A stretch of DNA of 64,000 nucleotides from Gordonia pseudamarae (lineage in GTDB: Bacteria; Actinomycetota; Actinomycetes; Mycobacteriales; Mycobacteriaceae), in assembly GCF_025273675.1 (NCBI RefSeq), contig NZ_CP045809.1, positions 2,480,001 through 2,544,000 on the forward strand, written 5' to 3'. The notes under the pieces are model-generated. The model was not told where the DNA came from. It searched no databases and saw only the letters and a list, made by a program, of their open reading frames with translations. Shown one piece after another: positions 49,102 through 58,716 of the stretch (the stretch's first letter is position 1; every line of letters begins with the position of its first letter). The translations under genes and the position numbers were made by a program.

Positions 49102-50448
49102 TCAGCTGTGCAGCAGGAAGTGTTCCAACACCCGCGTTCCGAACAGCAACGACTCGACCGGCACCCGCTCGTCGACACCGTGGAACAGTGCCGCGAAGTC
49201 CAGATCCGGCGGCAGTTGCAGCGGCGCGAAGCCAAAGCAGCGGATCCCGAGCTTGGCGAACGCCTTCGCGTCGGTACCGCCCGACAGCATGTACGGAACC
49301 GTCTTGCCCAGCGGGTCGTGGGCCAGGATCGCCTCGTTCATGGCGTCGACGAGGTGCCCGTCGAACGTCGTCTCGTACGAGTCGAGGTGGGTGATCCATT
49401 CGCGCGTGACGTCGGGCCCGATGAGTTCGTCGATCTCCGCCTCGAACGCGGCCTGGCGGCCGGGCAGCACCCGGCAGTCGATGACGGCCTCGGCCTTCTG
49501 CGGGATCACGTTGGCCTTGTAACCGGCCTTGAGCATCGTCGGGTTGGCGGTGTCGCGCAGGGTGGCGCCGATGATGCGGGCCAGATTGCCCAGCTTGAAC
49601 AGCGCGGTCTCCAGGTCGGGGGTGTCCGGGCTCAGATCCAGTCCGGTCTCGGCCGACACCTCCGCCAGGAACTGCGACACCGACTCGGTCATCACCAGCG
49701 GGAATGTGTGCCGGCCGATCCGGGCCACGGCCTCGGCGATCGCGGTGACCGCGTTGTCGGCGTGCAGGAACGACCCGTGACCGGCCGTGGCGTCGGCGGT
49801 CAGGCGCATCCACGCCAGCCCCTTCTCCGCGGTCTCCACCAGATACAGGCGCCGCTGGGTGCCGTCGGGCCGATCGACGGTCAGCGAGAAGCCGCCGACC
49901 TCACCCACGGCCTCGGTGACACCCTCGAACAGGTCGGGCCGGTTCTCGACCAGCCAGTGCGAGCCCCATGTGCCACCGGCCTCCTCGTCGGCGACGAACG
50001 CGAACAGGATGTCGCGCGGCGGTACGGTGCCGTCGCGTTTGAACTGTCGCGCCAGCGCCAGCGCCATGCCGACCATGTCTTTCATGTCGACCGCGCCGCG
50101 GCCCCAGATGTAGCCGTCGGAGACCGAGCCGGAGAACGGGTGCACGCTCCAGTCGGCGGGTTCGGCGGGCACCACGTCGAGGTGGGTGTGCAGCAGCAGT
50201 GCACCGCGGGTGTCGGCGGGATCGCCCTTGAGCCGGGCGAAGACATTGCCGCGCCCGGGTTGGCCGGATTCGACGTACTCGGTGACGTAGCCGACCTCCT
50301 CGAGGAGACCGGCGACCCACGTGGCGCATTCCTCCTCGCCCTTGGTGGTGCTGAGCTCGCCGGTATTGCTGGTGTCGAACCTGATCAGACGGCTCACCAG
50401 GTCGACCACTTCGTCCACCGCGCTGGGCGTGCTGCTGGGGGTGCTCAC
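49102..50448 (-). CDS. M20-family metallopeptidase/dipeptidase
   Basis: A 448-residue zinc hydrolase of the ArgE/DapE/CPG2 group. Metal ligands and catalytic residues lie in [27 protein letters not shown] and [15 protein letters not shown]. The lid/dimer domain separates these from a C-terminal His in [15 protein letters not shown] and GFAP. It cleaves small peptides or N-acyl amino acids; the substrate is not deducible. Same place as the Rv2141c-type gene of mycobacteria. Divergent from the tRNA gene across about 110 bp. Confidence 0.9.
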
Positions 50449-50557
50449 CCCCTTTTACTACGTGATTTGGGGAACGGGGGCAACCTCGGTTACTGTAATC
50501 CAGCCGGTGCGAGAACGGCCTCCACGAGGAGGCGGGGCGAGCGGAGGCAACCACCTT

Positions 50558-50646
50558 GTCCGGGTGGCGGAATGGCAGACGCGCTAGCTTGAGGTGCTAG
50601 TGCCCTATTAACGGGCGTGGGGGTTCAAGTCCCCCTCCGGACACCA
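50558..50646 (+). tRNA. tRNA-Leu (anticodon GAG)
   Basis: The cloverleaf reads from GTCCGGG (5' acceptor) to TCCGGAC with discriminator A and an encoded CCA. The D arm is GGCGGAATGGCAGACGCGC, the anticodon stem CTAGC/GCTAG encloses TTGAGGT with anticodon GAG, a long variable arm (TGCCCTATTAACGGGCG) marks a class II tRNA-Leu, and GGGGGTTCAAGTCCCCC is the T arm. Confidence 0.97.
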
Positions 50647-50650
50647 CGAG

Positions 50651-50685
50651 AAATCCCCGGATCCACAACGGATCCGGGGATTTTT
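50651..50685 (+). terminator. Intrinsic terminator after tRNA-Leu
   Basis: AAATCCCCGGATCC pairs perfectly with GGATCCGGGGATTT (14 bp, loop ACAAC), followed by TT. It starts 4 nt after the CCA end, so it defines the 3' limit of the tRNA transcript. Confidence 0.9.
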
Positions 50686-50856
50686 CCGTCTTACGGCAGA
50701 GCTGCGATCATCGCCTCATGCGGGCGGGCCGCCGGGGCGTTCGATCGACGGACATGAGCTGTCCGCGACCCACGTCCGGTCGCGGCGGTGTTAGATTCTG
50801 GTGCGTACACCGCCCTGTTCCGGCGGGCCGGGCTTCAGGGGAAAGGTCACTGCCAG

Positions 50857-52503
50857 ATGCACGCAGCCGGAGGATCCGAGATCGCCGGTCACCGGGTGTC
50901 CTCGATTCTCGGTCAGGGCGGAATGGGCACCGTGTACGCCGCACAGCATCCCCGGCTGCCGCGGATGGTCGCGCTCAAGGTGCTCAACGTGCCGGTGTCG
51001 GCCGATCCGTCGTTCCGGCTCCGCTTTCAGCGGGAGGGACAGCTCGCCGCCTCGCTCGAACACCCGCACATCGTGCCCATCTACGACTGCGGCGACGATC
51101 GGGGTCAGCTGTGGCTGAGCATGCGTCTGGTACGCGGCACCACCGCCGCCGCGCAGGTCGCGATCACCCCGCAGGGCATGCCGGTCGAGCCCGTGCTCGA
51201 CATCGTGCGGGCGGTAGCGTCCGCACTCGACTTCGCCAACCGGCGCGGTGTGGTGCACCGGGATGTCAAACCGGCCAACATCCTCATCGACACCGACACC
51301 GGCCAGGTGCTGTTGTCGGACTTCGGCATCGCCCGGCAGATGAGCGGCGACGACGGCCTGACCGCGGCGGGCAGTTTCATCGGCACCTTCGACTACAGCT
51401 CCCCCGAGCAGATCTCCGACGACGACCTCGACGGCCGCAGCGATCAGTACGCCCTGGCGTGTACCGTGGTGCAGCTGCTCACCGGCTGCAAGCCGTTCAC
51501 CGGGCACACCGCGGCCGCGATCATCAAACGGCACCTCGTCGATCCCCCGCCGTCGGTGGCCGCGATGCGGCCAGGGCTACCCGCTGCCGTCGACCCGGTG
51601 TTCAACCGGGCCCTGGCCAAACGGCCCGCGGACCGCTACCGCTCATGCGCCGATTTCGCCAAGGAGCTCGCGGCGGCGTTGCACACCGCCGCCGCACCCA
51701 CGCCGGGCGAGGCGCCCACGCAGCTGATCAGTACCGGCGAGGCCACCCGGATCACCACCTCAATCAACTACGAGTTCGTTGGTGAGGCACAGACATTCAC
51801 CTACACCGTCGCGGACGTGACGCACACGGTGACGTTGCGCCGCATCCGGGCCACCCGTGACCTGCCGCAGCATCGGGTCACCGCGGGCGATCGGGGCGGC
51901 TGGATCCAGTCGCCCGCCAATCTCGTCGATCAGGCCTGGGTCGGCGACGAGGCGTGGGTGGTGGGTTCGGCGCGGGTCCGTGAAAACGCGGCGGTCCGCG
52001 ACAACGCGTTCGTCGGCGATCACGCCGACATCGCGGGGACAGCCCGCGTCGACGGATCCGCGTCGGTGTTCGGTGAGGCACGGGTGCTGGGACAGTCCCG
52101 GATCTCCGACAACTCCGAGATCAACGGACAGGCGATGATCTCCGGGGGTGCCTGGGTACAGGAGGACGCGGTGGTCACCGAGTCGGCGAGCGCCGGCGAC
52201 CACGCCCGGGTCAGCGGCAACGCCCGCGTCGCCGGGGAGGCCAGAATCCGCGACTACGCCAACGTCACCGAGCAGTGCGAGATCTCGGGCCAGGCCCGGG
52301 TCGACGGCCACGCCCGGATCTCGGGTTCGGTGACCGTGACCGGCAAGGCCGCCGTCAGCGACCGGGCCCGCGTGTACGGCCGGGCCCAGATCGCCGACAA
52401 CGCGGTCGTCGCCGACGACGCGTCGGTGTCCGGGGATGCCGTGATCGGTGGCCGCGCGCAGATCCTGGACCAGGAGACAATCACCACCGGCAGCCGGGGC
52501 TGA
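50857..52503 (+). CDS. Serine/threonine protein kinase fused to a left-handed beta-helix domain
   Basis: A 548-residue cytosolic fusion. The kinase domain (1-275) has the Gly loop LGQGGMGTVY (18-27), Lys41 in VALKVL, the catalytic loop HRDVKPAN (134-141), DFG (155-157) and SPEQ; all catalytic residues are present. No membrane helix follows. A linker (about 278-345) leads to GDRGGWIQSPANLVDQAWVG (344-363), the entry motif I know from YdcK-like phage and enterobacterial repeat proteins. Then come about 30 short repeats of A-x-V-x-G/D-x type (ARVRENAAVRDNAFVGDHAD...) to 545, predicting a left-handed beta-helix. The start at 50857 has GGAAAGG about 11 nt upstream; a GTG at 50788 is possible. Confidence 0.85.
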   Translation: MHAAGGSEIAGHRVSSILGQGGMGTVYAAQHPRLPRMVALKVLNVPVSADPSFRLRFQREGQLAASLEHPHIVPIYDCGDDRGQLWLSMRLVRGTTAAAQVAITPQGMPVEPVLDIVRAVASALDFANRRGVVHRDVKPANILIDTDTGQVLLSDFGIARQMSGDDGLTAAGSFIGTFDYSSPEQISDDDLDGRSDQYALACTVVQLLTGCKPFTGHTAAAIIKRHLVDPPPSVAAMRPGLPAAVDPVFNRALAKRPADRYRSCADFAKELAAALHTAAAPTPGEAPTQLISTGEATRITTSINYEFVGEAQTFTYTVADVTHTVTLRRIRATRDLPQHRVTAGDRGGWIQSPANLVDQAWVGDEAWVVGSARVRENAAVRDNAFVGDHADIAGTARVDGSASVFGEARVLGQSRISDNSEINGQAMISGGAWVQEDAVVTESASAGDHARVSGNARVAGEARIRDYANVTEQCEISGQARVDGHARISGSVTVTGKAAVSDRARVYGRAQIADNAVVADDASVSGDAVIGGRAQILDQETITTGSRG

Positions 52504-52529
52504 TCGCCCGAGGCTGGTTGGATGGCCCG

Positions 52530-53657
52530 GTGATTGCGCTCTTCTTCGACTGTGACACCGGCATCGACGATTCGTTGGCACTGCTGTATCTGCTCGGCCG
52601 GCAGGCGGGCATCGCCGCCGACCCCACCGGCGCAAACCCGACCGGCACAGACCCGGCCGCCACGCCGGTGACCCTCGTGGGGATCGCGAGCACCGCCGGA
52701 AACGTGCCCACCGACGTGGTGACCGCCAACAACCTGGCCTGGCTGCGGGTGTGCGGACGCACCGATATCCCCGTCCACCGCGGCGCGGCCGGTCCGCTGG
52801 CCGACGACCTGCGCACCACCGAGGACACACACGGTCCGCGCGGCGTCGGTTACGCCGATCTGCCCGGGCCGGCAACCACCGCGCACCAGCTCGACGCCGC
52901 CGATGCGTGGATCGCGGCCGCCCGGCGCCATCCGGGGACTCTGGTGGGTCTGGTCACCGGCCCGCTGACCTCGCTGGCCACCGCGATCCGGCGTGACCCC
53001 GAACTGCCCGCACTGCTGGGCAGGCTGGTGATCATGGGCGGGGCGTTCCACACACACGGCAACACCACCCCGGTGGCCGAATGGAACGTCAGCGTCGATC
53101 CGGAGGCCGCTGCCGAGGTCTTCGAGGCGTTCAGCGCCCCGCGAACCGTCGACCCGGTGGTGTGCGGGCTCGACATCACCGAATCGATCGCGCTCACCCC
53201 CGCGCACGTCGTGGCCCTCGCCGAGGCGGCGGGCAGCACACCGGCAGAACGTCCGGCGGCGGGCGACCCGCGTGGGCTGCGATCGGCGTCGGACAATCCG
53301 GTGATCCGGTACGTGGTGGACGCGTTGCGGTTCTACTTCGAGTTCCACCACGACCACGACGAGGGATACATCGCCCACCTGCACGACCCGTTCGCGGCGA
53401 TGGTCGCGCTGGATCCGGAGGTCGTCGACACGATCCCCGCGCGGGTGGCGGTCGAGTTGGCGGGCACGCTCACCCGCGGCATGACGGTGGCCGATGAACG
53501 GTCGATGTGGCCGGGCGGGCCGAACGCGCGGATCGCGGTGCGCACCGACACCGAGGCGGTGTTCGCCGAACTGATCGCGGTCATCGGTGGCTATGCCCGC
53601 CGGGTGCACGAGTCGGGGTCCACCCCGGAACACCGCCCACCGCGTGAAGATGGCTAG
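52530..53657 (+). CDS. Inosine/uridine-preferring nucleoside hydrolase
   Basis: A 375-residue nucleoside hydrolase of the IUNH family. DCDTGIDDSLALLYLL (7-22) holds the calcium-binding Asp cluster DTGxDD; GLVTGPLTSLATAI, LVIMGGAFHTHGNTTPVAEW with the substrate Asn, and DPFAAMVALDP complete the site. It splits ribonucleosides to base and ribose in salvage. An insert near 35-48 (AGIAADPTGANPTGTDPAA) breaks the usual length. GTG start 26 bp after the kinase stop suggests an operon, though no functional link with the kinase is evident. Its stop overlaps the exporter start by 8 nt. Confidence 0.87.
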   Translation: MIALFFDCDTGIDDSLALLYLLGRQAGIAADPTGANPTGTDPAATPVTLVGIASTAGNVPTDVVTANNLAWLRVCGRTDIPVHRGAAGPLADDLRTTEDTHGPRGVGYADLPGPATTAHQLDAADAWIAAARRHPGTLVGLVTGPLTSLATAIRRDPELPALLGRLVIMGGAFHTHGNTTPVAEWNVSVDPEAAAEVFEAFSAPRTVDPVVCGLDITESIALTPAHVVALAEAAGSTPAERPAAGDPRGLRSASDNPVIRYVVDALRFYFEFHHDHDEGYIAHLHDPFAAMVALDPEVVDTIPARVAVELAGTLTRGMTVADERSMWPGGPNARIAVRTDTEAVFAELIAVIGGYARRVHESGSTPEHRPPREDG

Positions 53658-54996
53658 GCTACCCTCTGTGCCGGACCGTTCACTTCTGCTCGACATCTCC
53701 CCGCTGCGTGACAGCGCACCTTTCCGACGCATCTTCACCGCGCGCCTGATCTCGCTCGTCGGGATCGGAATGCTGATGGTGTCGGTGCCGATCCAGATGT
53801 ACGAGCTGACAAAGTCGTCGGCGCATGTCGGCGGCGCCACCGCCGCCACCGGCATCAGCACCTTCATCGGCATGATCATCGGCGGGGCGCTGGCCGACAA
53901 GTACGACCGCCGGACCATGATCCTGATCGGCCGGTCCGGGGCGATGCTCGCCTTTACCGGGTTGGCCGCCAACGCGTTCGGCGTGTTCGGCGGCGAACCG
54001 CTGTTCGCGGTCGTGTACGTGTTCGCCGCCGCCGACGGCCTCATCGGGGCCCTGTCGATCGCGGCGCTGATGGCCTCGCTGCCGACCTTGCTGCCGAAGG
54101 AGAAGATGGTCGCGGTCGGCGCGCTCAACTCCGTCTCGGTCCGGATCGGCACCGCCATCTCCCCCGGCATCGCCGGCCTGATCATCTACGCGGTCGGCGT
54201 GAGCTGGACCTATACCGCCGCCGCGGTGCTCTCGGCGATCACCGTGCTGCTGCTGACCGGTCTGCCCTCGATGCCGCCGTCGGCGGCGCACCCGGCCCCC
54301 GGCAATCAGCCCGGAAGTGATCACCACGGGGACGATCAGAACGGGGACGACACGAGCGGGGATGCCGAACCGCCGACGCATTCGATCGGCGCGTTCCTGC
54401 GCACGCAGCGGGTGGTCGGCGGCGTCATGGCGGTCGGCGTGCTGTCGATGTTCGGTGCCGGTGTCATCGCCCTGGTCCCGGCGCTGGCCGACGAACGATT
54501 CTCCGGCGACGAACGGGCCATCGGCTTCGCCTACGCGGCGATGGCGGTCGGTGCACTGGTGGCCGCGTTCACCAGCGGCTGGCTGCCGGGTCTTCGCCGA
54601 CCTGGCCTGGTGCTCCTGAGCGCGCTGATGCTGGTGTTCTGCCTGCACATCCTGTTCGGCCTGACATCGGTGCTGGTGGTGGCGCTGGTTATTCTCGTCG
54701 TGGGTGGCTACGGCGATACCGTGCAGGAGATCCTGCGGTTCTCGCTGATCCAGCACCACACCCCCGGCCCGATCCTCGGGCGTGTCACCGGCCTGTGGAC
54801 CGCCCAGGAGGTCGGTGGTATCACCGTCGGTTCGCTGGTGGCCGGTGTGTACGGCACCATCTGGTCGGCGTCGGATGCGGTGGTCTACTACGGTCTGACA
54901 ATGCTGGTACTGGCGGCGGTCGCGATGGTTCTGCTGGGGCCGCTGCGCCGGGTCGAGGCGCTGTACACCGCACCCGCCATCGACGGTGCTCCCTGA
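53650..54996 (+). CDS. EntS-like MFS siderophore exporter
   Basis: A 448-residue membrane protein with about 12 helices. It resembles the enterobactin exporter EntS: FRRIFTARLISLVGIGMLMV, SVPIQMYELTKSSAHVGG, GGALADKYDRRTMILIGRSG and LGRVTGLWTAQEVGGI. A charged, His/Asp-rich loop of about 35 residues (GNQPGSDHHGDDQNGDDTS...) sits between the two halves. The gene stands beside 2,3-dihydroxybenzoate synthesis genes, which supports export of a catecholate siderophore. A GTG at 53668 (VPDRSLLLDI) is an equally good start and would leave the iron-box candidate just upstream. Confidence 0.85.
   Translation: MARLPSVPDRSLLLDISPLRDSAPFRRIFTARLISLVGIGMLMVSVPIQMYELTKSSAHVGGATAATGISTFIGMIIGGALADKYDRRTMILIGRSGAMLAFTGLAANAFGVFGGEPLFAVVYVFAAADGLIGALSIAALMASLPTLLPKEKMVAVGALNSVSVRIGTAISPGIAGLIIYAVGVSWTYTAAAVLSAITVLLLTGLPSMPPSAAHPAPGNQPGSDHHGDDQNGDDTSGDAEPPTHSIGAFLRTQRVVGGVMAVGVLSMFGAGVIALVPALADERFSGDERAIGFAYAAMAVGALVAAFTSGWLPGLRRPGLVLLSALMLVFCLHILFGLTSVLVVALVILVVGGYGDTVQEILRFSLIQHHTPGPILGRVTGLWTAQEVGGITVGSLVAGVYGTIWSASDAVVYYGLTMLVLAAVAMVLLGPLRRVEALYTAPAIDGAP
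53654..53667. promoter_or_regulatory. Candidate iron box at the EntS-like exporter start
   Basis: CTAGGCTACCCTCT shares 11 of 14 bases with the box between entE and entB (TGAGGCTACCCTCA). It ends immediately before the GTG at 53668. It lies within the end of the nucleoside hydrolase gene, so selection on the coding frame may partly explain it. Confidence 0.4.
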
Positions 54997-55041
54997 CGAG
55001 CGCCGGGTCTCCCGGCCCGGTGGTCGTCGGCCCTGTGGTCG

Positions 55042-56622
55042 TCAGTTCTGGGCGAGCAACTCACGCAGCCGCTTGCGGCTCACCTTGCCAACCCCGGTCT
55101 CGGGGAACTGCTCGATAACCTTGACCACATCCGGCAGCTTCCATTCGGCCAGCCCCGACTCCCGGACGAACTTGCGCAGCACCGGGAGTGTCGGCGGCTC
55201 GTCGTCGAGCGCGGCGATCACATAGGCGCAGGTACGTTCGCCCAGGAATTTGTCGGCGACGGCGACGACGATCGCGTCGCGGACCGCCGGATGCGCCAGC
55301 AGCTGCTCCTCCAGTTCCTCGGCCGAGACCTTCTCCCCGCCCCGGTTCACCCGGTCGCCGCCACGCCCACGGACCACCAGATTGCCCTCGGGGGTCAGCT
55401 CGACCACATCGCCGGTGCGATACCAGCCGTCGGGGGCGAATGATTCGGGACTGCGGTCGGCCCAGTAGCCGCGAATCGTGTACGGGCCCTGCGTCTCCAG
55501 AAAGCCGGTACCTTCGGTGACGATCTCGCCGTCCTCATCGACCAGGCGCAACTCGTCCGCCTCGGACATCGGCCTGCCCTGGGTGGCGGTGATCACGTCC
55601 TCGGGATCGTCGAGACGGGTGTAGCAGACCAGACCCTCAGCCATCCCGAACACCTGCTGCAGGGTCACCCCCAGTGCCGGGCCGATCCGGCGGGCCAGTT
55701 CGTCCGGACAGCGGGCACCGCCCACCTGCACCGTCCGCAACGTCGACAGGTCGAAATCGGTTCCGGCCTCGGCGGTCTCGGTCCACAACCGGGCCAGCGG
55801 CGGCACCAGACCGGTCATCGTGACCCCGGCGCGCTCCACCATCTGCCAGGCCACCGACGGCGTGGGTGACTCGGTGAGGGCGACGGTGCCACCGACGTAC
55901 AGGGCGCCGAGGATGCCGGGCGAACTCATCGGAAAATTATGTGCCACCGGCAAAGTGGCCAGATAAACGGTGTCGGCGGTGACCCCGCACAGCTCGTTGC
56001 TGCGGATCACGCTGTAGAGGTAGTCGTCGTGGGTGCGCGGGATCAGCTTGGGAATCCCCGTGCTGCCACCGGACAACTGCAGGAACGCCATCTCCGACGG
56101 ATCGGACCGATCGTGGTCGACGGGATCGGCGTAGAGCGAGGCCAGATCGTCGGCGGCGATGATGTGACGTACCGACGGCACCCGGGCGGCCACCGTCTCG
56201 GCGAGCGCGTGATGGTCGACGGCGCCGATCCGGCGAGGCGTCACGATCGCGACGGCCCCGGCGGCATCGGCGATGCCCACCAACTCGGTCTCACGGTGCG
56301 CCGGCAGCCCGAACACCGGCAGCGCACCGATCCGGAACAGCGCGAACACCACGATCACGTAGTCGGCCCGGTTGGGAATCTGCAGCAGGACCCGTTCGTC
56401 GCGTCCGATGCCCAGCCCCACCAGACCGGCGGCGAGGCGTCCGACGTGCTCGTCGAGTTCGCGGTAGCTGAGCGTGGTGGTGGTGTCGATGACCGCGATG
56501 CGGGCGGCGACCCGCGGGTCGGCCGCCCGGCTACGCAGCATGTCGTCGAACGTCTCGCCGCGCCACAGTCCCGAGGTACGGTAGCGGTCGGCGAGTTCCT
56601 TGGGCCACGGTGCAACCTTCAC
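55042..56622 (-). CDS. entE: 2,3-dihydroxybenzoate-AMP ligase (EntE/DhbE type)
   Basis: A 526-residue adenylating enzyme of the ANL family that activates 2,3-dihydroxybenzoate (or salicylate) with ATP and loads it on an aryl carrier protein. LQLSGGSTGIPKLIPRTHDD is the P-loop, AHNFPMSSPGILG the aryl-acid pocket (the Ser after MS fits the DHB enzymes; MbtA has Cys), QQVFGMAEGLVCYTRLDDPE, WYRTGDVVE, RGGDRVNRGGEKVSAEELEE and the catalytic Lys in TGVGKVSRKRL. The start is GTG at 56622. Only 23 bp separate it from the divergent entB-like gene. It is convergent with the exporter. Confidence 0.93.
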   Translation of the reverse strand: MKVAPWPKELADRYRTSGLWRGETFDDMLRSRAADPRVAARIAVIDTTTTLSYRELDEHVGRLAAGLVGLGIGRDERVLLQIPNRADYVIVVFALFRIGALPVFGLPAHRETELVGIADAAGAVAIVTPRRIGAVDHHALAETVAARVPSVRHIIAADDLASLYADPVDHDRSDPSEMAFLQLSGGSTGIPKLIPRTHDDYLYSVIRSNELCGVTADTVYLATLPVAHNFPMSSPGILGALYVGGTVALTESPTPSVAWQMVERAGVTMTGLVPPLARLWTETAEAGTDFDLSTLRTVQVGGARCPDELARRIGPALGVTLQQVFGMAEGLVCYTRLDDPEDVITATQGRPMSEADELRLVDEDGEIVTEGTGFLETQGPYTIRGYWADRSPESFAPDGWYRTGDVVELTPEGNLVVRGRGGDRVNRGGEKVSAEELEEQLLAHPAVRDAIVVAVADKFLGERTCAYVIAALDDEPPTLPVLRKFVRESGLAEWKLPDVVKVIEQFPETGVGKVSRKRLRELLAQN

Positions 56623-56627
56623 CCGGG

Positions 56628-56641
56628 TGAGGCTACCCTCA
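56628..56641. promoter_or_regulatory. Divergent iron box with overlapping -10 elements
   Basis: TGAGGCTACCCTCA has perfect TGAGG/CCTCA arms with a 4-bp centre, the DtxR/IdeR core layout, and matches about 13 of 19 positions of the extended TTAGGTTAGGCTAACCTAA box. Within it TACCCT (56634-56639) is a -10 candidate 6 nt before the entB GTG (56646), and, on the other strand, TAGCCT (56635-56630) is one 7 nt before the entE GTG (56622). Both mRNAs would be leaderless, and a bound repressor would cover both promoters. Confidence 0.65.
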
Positions 56642-56645
56642 GTAT

Positions 56646-57296
56646 GTGGCTATACCCAAGATCGCCCCGTACTCGATCCCTGCCGGCCCGTACCCCGCTC
56701 GAGTGGACTGGACGATCGATGTCAACCGGGTAGCTCTGCTGATTCACGACATGCAGCGGTACTTCATCGACGCGTACGACGTGATGTCCGAGCCTATGGC
56801 TACCGCATTGCCCAATATGGTCGCGATCCGCGAGGCATGCGAGGCGGCCGCCGTGCCGATAGTGTTCACCGCCCAACCCGGCGATCAGCATCCCTCGCGA
56901 CGCGGGATTCTCTCCGACTTCTGGGGTAAAGGCCTGGCCTCCGGCCGTGACGAAGAGATCGTCGACGAACTGGCCATCCGGGATCACAACATCATGGTCA
57001 CCAAGTGGCGGTATTCGAGTTTCCAGCGCACCGACATGCGGCACCTGCTGGCCCATCACGGGCGCGATCAGCTGATCGTCGTCGGTGTGTACGCGCACAT
57101 GGGGTGCATGATCTCGGCGACCGAGGCGTTCATGGGCGATGTGGAACCGTATTTCGTCCACGATGCGCTCGGCGACTTCTCCGCCGAGGAACACGACATG
57201 GCTGCCAACTACATCGCCAAACGCGCCGGACGGGTGCTGACGACGGCCGAGGTCCTGGCCGCGCTCGTCCCTTCGACGCAAGCCGTCCCGCAGTGA
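56646..57296 (+). CDS. entB: Isochorismatase (EntB-type, without carrier domain)
   Basis: A 216-residue isochorismatase: isochorismate to 2,3-dihydro-2,3-dihydroxybenzoate and pyruvate. [17 protein letters not shown] holds the catalytic Asp, [13 protein letters not shown] the Lys loop, and [20 protein letters not shown] the covalent-loop region. Unlike E. coli EntB it stops after the isochorismatase domain, so the aryl carrier protein must be a separate protein or part of a synthetase elsewhere. GTG start; overlaps the next gene (GTGA). Confidence 0.92.
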
Positions 57297-58024
57297 CCGG
57301 TCCACCGCTGACAGTTCCGGGGGTCACCGGCAGGCATGTCCTGGTCACCGGTGCCGTCGGCGGGATCGGCAGTGCGGTCGTGGACGCGCTGGCGGCTGCC
57401 GGGGCGCGGGTGAGCGCGTGGGATCAGGCCGAGGGCGACGACGTGCGAGCGGTTGACGTGCGCGGACTGGACGCGGTCCGCGACGCCTGGCGGGCCACCG
57501 AGTCGGCCGCGGGTGCTGTGGAGTTGCTCGTGCACGCCGCCGGCGTTATGAGTGGCGACTGGGACTTGTGTATGGCGGTGAACGCGGGCGGTGTGCGCAA
57601 CGTCCTCGATGTGGCCACCGAGGCGATGATCGGCGGTGGCGTCGCCGGGTCGATCGTGGTGCTCTCCAGCAATGCCGCCCCGATCCCGCGGACGGCGATG
57701 GCCGAGTACGCCGCGTCCAAGGCGGCGGCCACGTCATATGCGCGCAGTGTTGGACTGGCCGTGGCCGGGCACGGGATCCGCGTCAACGTCGTCTCCCCCG
57801 GTTCCACGATGACGCCGATGCTGACCGGGATGTGGACTTCCGACGCCGACCGGCAACGTGTGCTGGCCGGTACGCCCGAACAGTTCCGGCTCGGAATCCC
57901 GTTGGGGCGCATCGCCGAACCCGCCGATATCGCGTCGACGATCGTATTCCTGCTCTCGGATGCCGCCCGCCACATCACCATCCACGACCTACGAGTCGAC
58001 GGCGGCGCCACCCTCGACATGTGA
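57293..58024 (+). CDS. entA: 2,3-dihydro-2,3-dihydroxybenzoate dehydrogenase (EntA type)
   Basis: A 243-residue short-chain dehydrogenase giving 2,3-dihydroxybenzoate, the catechol of enterobactin-like siderophores. The cofactor loop is VTGAVGGIGSAVVDALAAAG, the catalytic Tyr and Lys are in MAEYAASKAAATSYARSVG, and NVVSPGSTMTPML is the substrate loop. GTG start overlaps the isochorismatase stop. The order entE, entB, entA is as in other catecholate clusters; entC and the synthetase are absent from this window. Confidence 0.91.
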   Translation: MTGPPLTVPGVTGRHVLVTGAVGGIGSAVVDALAAAGARVSAWDQAEGDDVRAVDVRGLDAVRDAWRATESAAGAVELLVHAAGVMSGDWDLCMAVNAGGVRNVLDVATEAMIGGGVAGSIVVLSSNAAPIPRTAMAEYAASKAAATSYARSVGLAVAGHGIRVNVVSPGSTMTPMLTGMWTSDADRQRVLAGTPEQFRLGIPLGRIAEPADIASTIVFLLSDAARHITIHDLRVDGGATLDM

Positions 58025-58339: not shown

Positions 58340-58588
58340 TCAGAGCCCGAGTTCGACCATCAGCTCCGCATGGGAGACACGTGGCTCAGTCTCAGCGCGT
58401 GCCGTAGCCGCCGCACCGATATCGAGCTGATCCTCCAGAGCCTGCACGGCACGGTCGAAGAACTCCGGCGAGACGACGACGGCGCGACGGCCCGCCCCGC
58501 GCGAAGTGATCTCGACGGGCTCACGCTGCGCAGCGGCGATGTAGTCGCTCTGCTGCTTGCGGAACTGAGACAGGGTCACCGAAGTCAT
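58340..58588 (-). CDS. Phd/YefM-family antitoxin
   Basis: An 82-residue antitoxin. TSVTLSQFRKQQSDYIAAAQ (2-21) is the DNA-binding Phd/YefM domain, followed by the beta strand PVEITSRGAGRRAVVVSPEF. The disordered C-terminus (RAETEPRVSHAELMVELGL) wraps the toxin. The ATG at 58588 is the likely start; a longer reading (58621) lacks support. Immediately upstream is the operator palindrome it should bind with RelE. Confidence 0.88.
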   Translation of the reverse strand: MTSVTLSQFRKQQSDYIAAAQREPVEITSRGAGRRAVVVSPEFFDRAVQALEDQLDIGAAATARAETEPRVSHAELMVELGL

Positions 58589-58596
58589 AGCTAAAC

Positions 58597-58611
58597 TGTA
58601 CAACTTGTACA
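58597..58611. promoter_or_regulatory. Operator palindrome of the RelE/Phd pair
   Basis: TGTACAA-C-TTGTACA is a perfect inverted repeat 8 bp upstream of the antitoxin ATG. A second partial arm, AGAAGTACA, follows, so two antitoxin dimers may bind side by side. Conditional repression by the complex is the usual mode for this family. Confidence 0.75.
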
Positions 58612-58716
58612 AGAAGTACACAACGGGCTCTACGAGTCGACGGCGGCGCCACCCTCGACGTGTGAGTCGCCCAGGTCTCGGCGGCCAGCGGTGGCATTCG
58701 ACGCTATCGTCTTGTC

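Follow-up and report, generated by a model that had tools for sequence, protein, structure and literature searches.

A kinase gene with a YdcK-type repeat domain

The window, by which we mean the whole stretch of 64,000 nucleotides from Gordonia pseudamarae analysed here, contains a gene for a 548-residue protein in which a Ser/Thr kinase domain is joined to a cap and repeat domain of the YdcK type. The gene lies exactly where a previous sequence-only reading had placed it, and the same protein is found in five more Gordonia genomes. The locus comprises the following features:

50558..50646, + strand: tRNA-Leu(GAG), with the fusion gene in a variable spot just behind it
50837..50846, + strand: AGGGGAAAGG, a ribosome-site-like element before the ATG at 50857 (comparison with relatives)
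50857..52503, + strand: gene for kinase plus YdcK-type β-helix, 548 residues (ORF list, relatives, alignment)
50890..51675, + strand: Hanks-type Ser/Thr kinase domain, PknF-like, residues 12-273 (Pfam, solved relatives)
51676..51765, + strand: fast-changing Pro/Thr-rich linker, residues 274-303 (alignment, entropy, pN/pS)
51766..51933, + strand: YdcK-type N-terminal cap, residues 304-359, including GDRGGWIQSPANL (profile and YdcK matches)
51934..52473, + strand: predicted hexapeptide β-helix, residues 360-539, 30 hexapeptides or 10 turns of 18 (model, repeat count)
52474..52500, + strand: C-terminal tail, residues 540-548 (ORF, alignment)
52518..53657, + strand: nucleoside hydrolase (PF01156), a neighbour only, not conserved as a partner

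The element AGGGGAAAGG recurs, minus one A, in the copies from G. amarae and from a Gordonia MAG (L002 and L003), and no similar element was found in the other three copies of the fusion gene. An alternative in-frame GTG at 50788 would give a longer reading frame.

The kinase domain and a search for a membrane segment

The kinase domain had been described as complete, and all motifs of a Hanks-type kinase are indeed present: the Gly loop GQGGMG (residues 19-24), K41, E60, HRD (134-136), K138, N141, DFG (155-157) and, as the (A/S)PE motif, SPE (182-184). All of them are invariant in the alignment of eight fused proteins. The domain matches PF00069 in the Pfam scan (E 7.4e-40), and its nearest solved relative is PknF of Mycobacterium tuberculosis (7naa, E 8.9e-79), followed by PknE, PknB and PknI. 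T169 in the activation loop, aligned with position 171 of PknB, is also invariant, as are L34 and D77, which are aligned with PknB positions 33 and 76, presumably contacts of the PknB back-to-back dimer. A third dimer position of PknB, which we take to be R10, would meet G11 here if the alignment extended beyond its start, and it seems not to be kept in the fusion kinase. The PASTA kinase model NF033483 gives 273.4 bits against a cut-off of 450 bits, over residues 13-289 only.

Ser/Thr kinases of actinobacteria are usually interpreted as membrane receptors, and we assume that PknF, PknE, PknI and PknB are all membrane kinases. The fusion protein resembles these four in its kinase domain but differs beyond it, with no membrane segment detected and with the β-helix replacing the rest. 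The proposed lack of a membrane segment was upheld by hydropathy: the highest 19-residue mean is 1.05, whereas 23 of 24 other Gordonia kinases (L007-L030, the exception being L027) reach 1.6 or more in at least one window that starts behind residue 250, a candidate segment by what is a simple hydropathy rule rather than a topology predictor. These 24 are the top matches, one per genome, from 24 genomes that lack the fusion; of the 59 Gordonia genomes searched, 43 had a match, and loci were taken from 30.

The cap and the hexapeptide repeat

The entry motif GDRGGWIQSPANL (residues 344-356) lies inside a larger YdcK-type cap that begins at about residue 304. Behind it, 30 hexapeptides follow without interruption, and 29 of them match [ASCV]-x-[VIL]; in 20,000 shuffles, with 29 hexapeptides counted per shuffled frame, the best frame reached at most 10. 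The cap and helix match YdcK of Salmonella (2f9c/2pig) with a whole-sequence E of 2.8e-13, the best stretch covering residues 12-222 of the 249 submitted. The sequence-only description of a kinase fused to a YdcK-type entry motif and some 30 A-x-V repeats is therefore accurate, and the order of N-terminal cap and then hexapeptide repeat is that of the YdcK-type architecture.

Family models place the protein near YdcK, not within it. The NCBI YdcK model NF040481 matches at E 2.6e-24, but its 85.7 bits are far under the curated whole-protein score of 350 bits, and thus the protein lies outside the YdcK family as NCBI defines it. The Pfam model of the YdcK β-solenoid repeat, PF18836, gives 20.5 bits against a gathering score of 30 bits, and the fused relatives P0003, P0005 and P0006 do carry it in precomputed annotation. 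Two phage families, phrog_7964 and phrog_5070, match the cap and helix at E 7.6e-61 and 2.4e-55; both, the best matches among the PHROG families, are without an assigned function. They and Salmonella YdcK share with the fusion protein a cap resembling RIRA..D....V.AGD.GGW...NL and a hexapeptide repeat, but in YdcK, a free-standing protein, the cap is N-terminal and there is no kinase. For the hexapeptide acyltransferases LpxA, LpxD and GlmU, all listed models scored far below their curated cut-offs. No pentapeptide family is among the seven families in the Pfam scan, and the period of the repeat is six.

Predicted fold and handedness

AlphaFold2 predicts a solenoid, with block-mean pLDDT of 90-95 over about residues 420-520. 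The end of the cap and the first turn (about residues 350-379) have block means of 45-57, the lowest apart from the C-terminal tail. A full-length model, made from 8 sequences, is weak (mean pLDDT 54.5) and served only as a second look. AlphaFold2 is reported to turn perfect repeats into β-solenoids that are confident yet unrealistic (PMC11795689), and for this reason its confidence was not taken as proof.

The sequence-only reading had called the helix left-handed. Its solenoid fold agrees with the prediction and with the homology to YdcK, but the models do not reproduce the hand: both are about 11 Å rmsd from YdcK, and the helix-only model superposes on right-handed helices at 2.5 Å. Since the hand is probably wrong in both models, left-handedness rests on the homology to YdcK, by which the solenoid would be left-handed. 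Neither the PDB nor a viral library gave a Foldseek match with E of 0.001 or lower; the top PDB match was YdcK (E 0.017) and the second in the viral library was a phage protein named after YdcK (E 0.002), and the structural second look at the PDB was limited to candidates from Foldseek itself.

Constraint along the protein

Pairwise pN/pS, in the order kinase, cap, first helix half, second helix half and linker, was:

against G. amarae: 0.13, 0.11, 0.19, 0.30, 0.58
against the Gordonia MAG: 0.18, 0.30, 0.14, 0.47, 0.58
against G. desulfuricans: 0.32, 0.32, 0.47, 0.74, 0.91
against G. polyisoprenivorans: 0.33, 0.34, 0.40, 0.74, 0.67

By this measure, the kinase, the cap and the early turns are under constraint. 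Column entropy is 0.30 in the first turn of the helix and climbs to about 0.95 by the last turns, the first three turns being the most conserved, and the G. desulfuricans copy ends earlier in the helix than the others.

The faces of the helix were compared in an exploratory test on eight related sequences, which assumes uninterrupted 18-residue turns and counts each of the three strands in a turn as one face. At the outward positions 2 and 4, entropy was 0.57, 0.95 and 1.39 on the three faces (permutation p 0.0022 and 0.001 in two runs); at the inward positions 1 and 3 there was no face difference (p 0.95). Position 2 alone gave p 0.022 and position 4 alone p 0.015, and other sets were weaker (p 0.088 for 2, 4 and 6, 0.20 for 5-6 and 0.13 for all six). 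With two close sequences dropped, p was 0.0004 for 2 and 4, 0.036 for 2, 4 and 6, and 0.073 for all six. One face of the helix looks conserved in this alignment. W361, W367, F385 and W433 are invariant outward aromatics, and R397 and F405 also point outward and are invariant.

Other kinases with repeats

Pentapeptide repeats form a right-handed, four-sided β-solenoid. As far as the available text of two reports goes, such repeats stand at the C-terminus of cyanobacterial Ser/Thr kinases, SpkB among them (PMC2176072, PMC1262709). C-terminal repeats on bacterial Ser/Thr kinases are thus not new in kind, but these examples differ in having pentapeptide repeats and in coming from a different phylum, and the available text does not mention a YdcK cap (PMC2176072, PMC1262709). 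Among the open-licence papers listed, covered mostly by title and abstract start, none describes an actinobacterial kinase that carries a YdcK-type cap with a hexapeptide helix.

A second protein with a kinase and hexapeptide repeats is P0017 (579 residues, one member sequence on one contig). It has two hexapeptide arrays, but its cap is HRHxxGGGW-like and its kinase match starts only from profile position 56. The same type of cap and array is carried by P0023, a dynamin-like GTPase, and hexapeptide rods are therefore joined to other modules now and then.

Distribution and origin

Six of the 59 Gordonia genomes carry the fusion in a search that scored at most 24 candidates per genome: G000, G. 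amarae NBRC 15530 (G004), the Gordonia MAG (G045), G. desulfuricans NBRC 100010 (G011), G. polyisoprenivorans NBRC 16320 (G031) and G032. A protein search, in which the 7993 candidates with the most shared words were scored, added at least seven fused Gordonia-type proteins (P0002-P0008), some from the same species as the fusion genomes. Among 397 genomes of the order, a draw that evidently did not include the other fusion genomes, a full match was found only in the window's own genome, with partial helix matches in three others (best E 1.5e-21). Had kinase and repeat always been separate genes elsewhere, an assembly join would have been implied here; because the join occurs in six of 59 genomes and in at least two genomic places, such an artefact is ruled out. 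In a tree with the 24 other Gordonia kinases, P0001-P0008 group by their kinase domains into a single clade (support 99/99, one change); several other branches of this tree are long or weak.

Beyond Gordonia, the cap and helix were found apart from a kinase. A search of 84,980 species genomes with one cap motif, which could miss fusions with a different cap sequence, gave 49 matching stretches; 18 loci were confirmed, and 4 of these are Gordonia fusions. Frames were read for 13 of the other 14 (none for L053), and 12 have at most 138 codons ahead of the cap motif, too few for a kinase. The remaining locus, L046, has 299 codons there, in which Pfam found no kinase. In the same locus, from Nocardia sp. 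CNY236, hexapeptide-type matches lie on either side of the cap motif (L046:5158-6780), possibly a tandem YdcK-type protein.

Of 22 viral loci, 20 were analysed (L063 and L064, the same match as L062, were left out), and none of the 18 with a frame has room for a kinase. In a phage collection, 64 records match the cap, the helix or both, all at less than 60% identity. Among phage proteins, Mycobacterium phage Boilgate gp64 is 44.5% identical over query residues 5-165, and its gene sits among genes annotated for DNA metabolism. One viral contig of 152589 bases has YdcK-type cap and helix matches at three places (L059, L061 and L070). These bacterial and phage loci fit the view, already put forward in the sequence-only reading, that YdcK-type repeats are usually free-standing and linked to phages. 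No plasmid copies were found at E 1e-80. Most likely, a PknF-like kinase was fused with a phage-type cap and helix protein in an ancestor within Gordonia.

Genomic setting

A check on conserved neighbours came out negative, since the fusion gene occurs in at least two settings, at the tRNA-Leu spot and behind Hsp20. In G000, G. amarae and the Gordonia MAG, an M20 peptidase gene and tRNA-Leu(GAG) precede the fusion gene; downstream lies nucleoside hydrolase in the first two and what reads as an MFS gene in the MAG. In the window, TTG 52518 is a possible start of the hydrolase, 14 bp after the kinase stop. The M20 peptidase is present in 59 of 59 Gordonia genomes and the tRNA in all 30 loci fetched (L081-L110). 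The spot behind the tRNA held the fusion in 3 of these loci, nucleoside hydrolase at once in 2 (L085 and L097), an ORF with an AFEWT-type start in 15 (L084 and L109, the two scanned with Pfam, encode an MscS-type channel), and other or unread content in 10. Depending on the Gordonia species, the tRNA and nucleoside hydrolase are thus separated by the fusion kinase, by an MscS-type channel, by other genes or by no gene at all.

In the other three fusion genomes, Hsp20 lies directly upstream on the same strand, although the wider surroundings differ between the two listed here:

L033:8815-9345: Hsp20 upstream of the fusion in G. desulfuricans
L035:10932-11414: Hsp20 upstream of the fusion in G. 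polyisoprenivorans

The Hsp20 copy of G032 was judged by its sequence start, which is identical to that of G. polyisoprenivorans. At the tRNA spot, the hydrolase follows the tRNA at once in G. desulfuricans, and G. polyisoprenivorans and G032 have the MscS-type channel ORF. The convergent next gene in G. polyisoprenivorans encodes an NCS1 nucleobase-type transporter, with dihydropyrimidinase further off, and G032 shows this transporter start as well. A pyrimidine theme among the neighbours was rejected, as the MAG has no adjacent nucleoside hydrolase and as the ORF starts of G. desulfuricans, by which its neighbours were judged, showed no recognisable counterpart (the family scan there was for Hsp20 only).

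As the content behind the tRNA varies and the position of the fusion differs, gain, loss or relocation of the gene must have taken place, and a function read from the genes around it was rejected, since they are no guide to it. Among the 20 of 35 repeat families listed, there is no direct repeat of the tRNA end within 50400-58000, as the att repeats of a genomic island would give. Further along the window, a transposase of DDE group 1 (PF13701, 59124-60569) lies near a Phd/YefM-type antitoxin ORF (58340-58621).

Possible roles of the repeat domain

Our preferred reading, to which we give a probability of roughly 40%, is that the YdcK-type domain acts as a rigid rod that clusters kinase domains, or brings them onto a partner, for mutual activation by phosphorylation. 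The kinase, with its catalytic residues complete, would be active; the repeat domain, predicted to be a rigid rod, would gather kinase domains or set them on a partner, with the early turns and the one conserved face as a putative interface; clustering would allow trans-phosphorylation of the activation loop at T169; and the acquired helix would stand in for the membrane-sensor route of related kinases. The invariant L34 and D77, aligned with putative dimer positions of PknB, speak for clustering; the apparent loss of the third such position speaks against it, as do the low model confidence at the cap end and first turn, where the helix is most conserved, and the probably wrong hand of both models. 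Also counting against clustering, a spacer would explain the greater variability of the later turns and the early end of the G. desulfuricans copy just as well as a working surface would. The helix might even be an inert spacer or a decaying addition, which the faster evolution of its second half (pN/pS 0.30 to 0.74 by pair) and the shortened copy would suit. We consider this the least probable of the readings weighed here, since 29 of 30 hexapeptides are intact and since, in the comparisons with G. desulfuricans and G. polyisoprenivorans, pN/pS of the cap is close to that of the kinase and only somewhat higher in the first half of the helix. Docking on a partner, with the helix binding one specific protein or structure and keeping the kinase near its substrate without self-assembly, is tentative too, yet nearly as likely as clustering. 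The conserved face and the invariant outward aromatics would suit such a docking arm, and the fast-evolving linker would provide reach; dynactin p27, a left-handed β-helix reported to help target Plk1, may offer an analogy. However, no conserved neighbour or partner accompanies the gene, which has M20 peptidase, tRNA-Leu and mostly nucleoside hydrolase beside it in one group and Hsp20 in the other.

That Hsp20 gene raises the idea of a stress kinase whose helix reads or organises small heat-shock protein assemblies. Its place directly upstream in three of six fusion genomes speaks for the link, but gaps of about 220-600 bp separate the two genes and the other three genomes have no such neighbour, so we regard it as very improbable. 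A role against phages, in which the captured phage-type helix is bait or co-assembles with phage YdcK-type proteins and so turns the kinase on, seems unlikely, although less so than the Hsp20 link. It would agree with the carriage of this helix type by phages (64 records, 22 viral loci, Boilgate gp64) and with the patchy presence of the gene in at least two genomic places, one of them the variable spot beside the tRNA. The kinase part also resembles the PD-T4-6 defence kinases (PADLOC models, best E 1e-90), but the best match spans residues 1-287 only and leaves out the helix, and such models may match ordinary kinases; moreover, the phage matches are all less than 60% identical. Slightly more doubtful still is an integrated decoy, with the helix as the sensor of a soluble kinase: incoming phage YdcK-type proteins or their targets would join the rod in an assembly, and the kinase clustered in this way would set off a defence response; if so, bacteria would have made an integrated decoy out of a phage fold.

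If the clustering reading is correct, Gordonia would have a soluble bacterial kinase that uses a rigid repeat rod in place of a membrane receptor. The fusion gives a handle on the phage YdcK-type proteins, and it makes testable the idea that a β-solenoid alone may set the activity of a kinase through assembly or docking.
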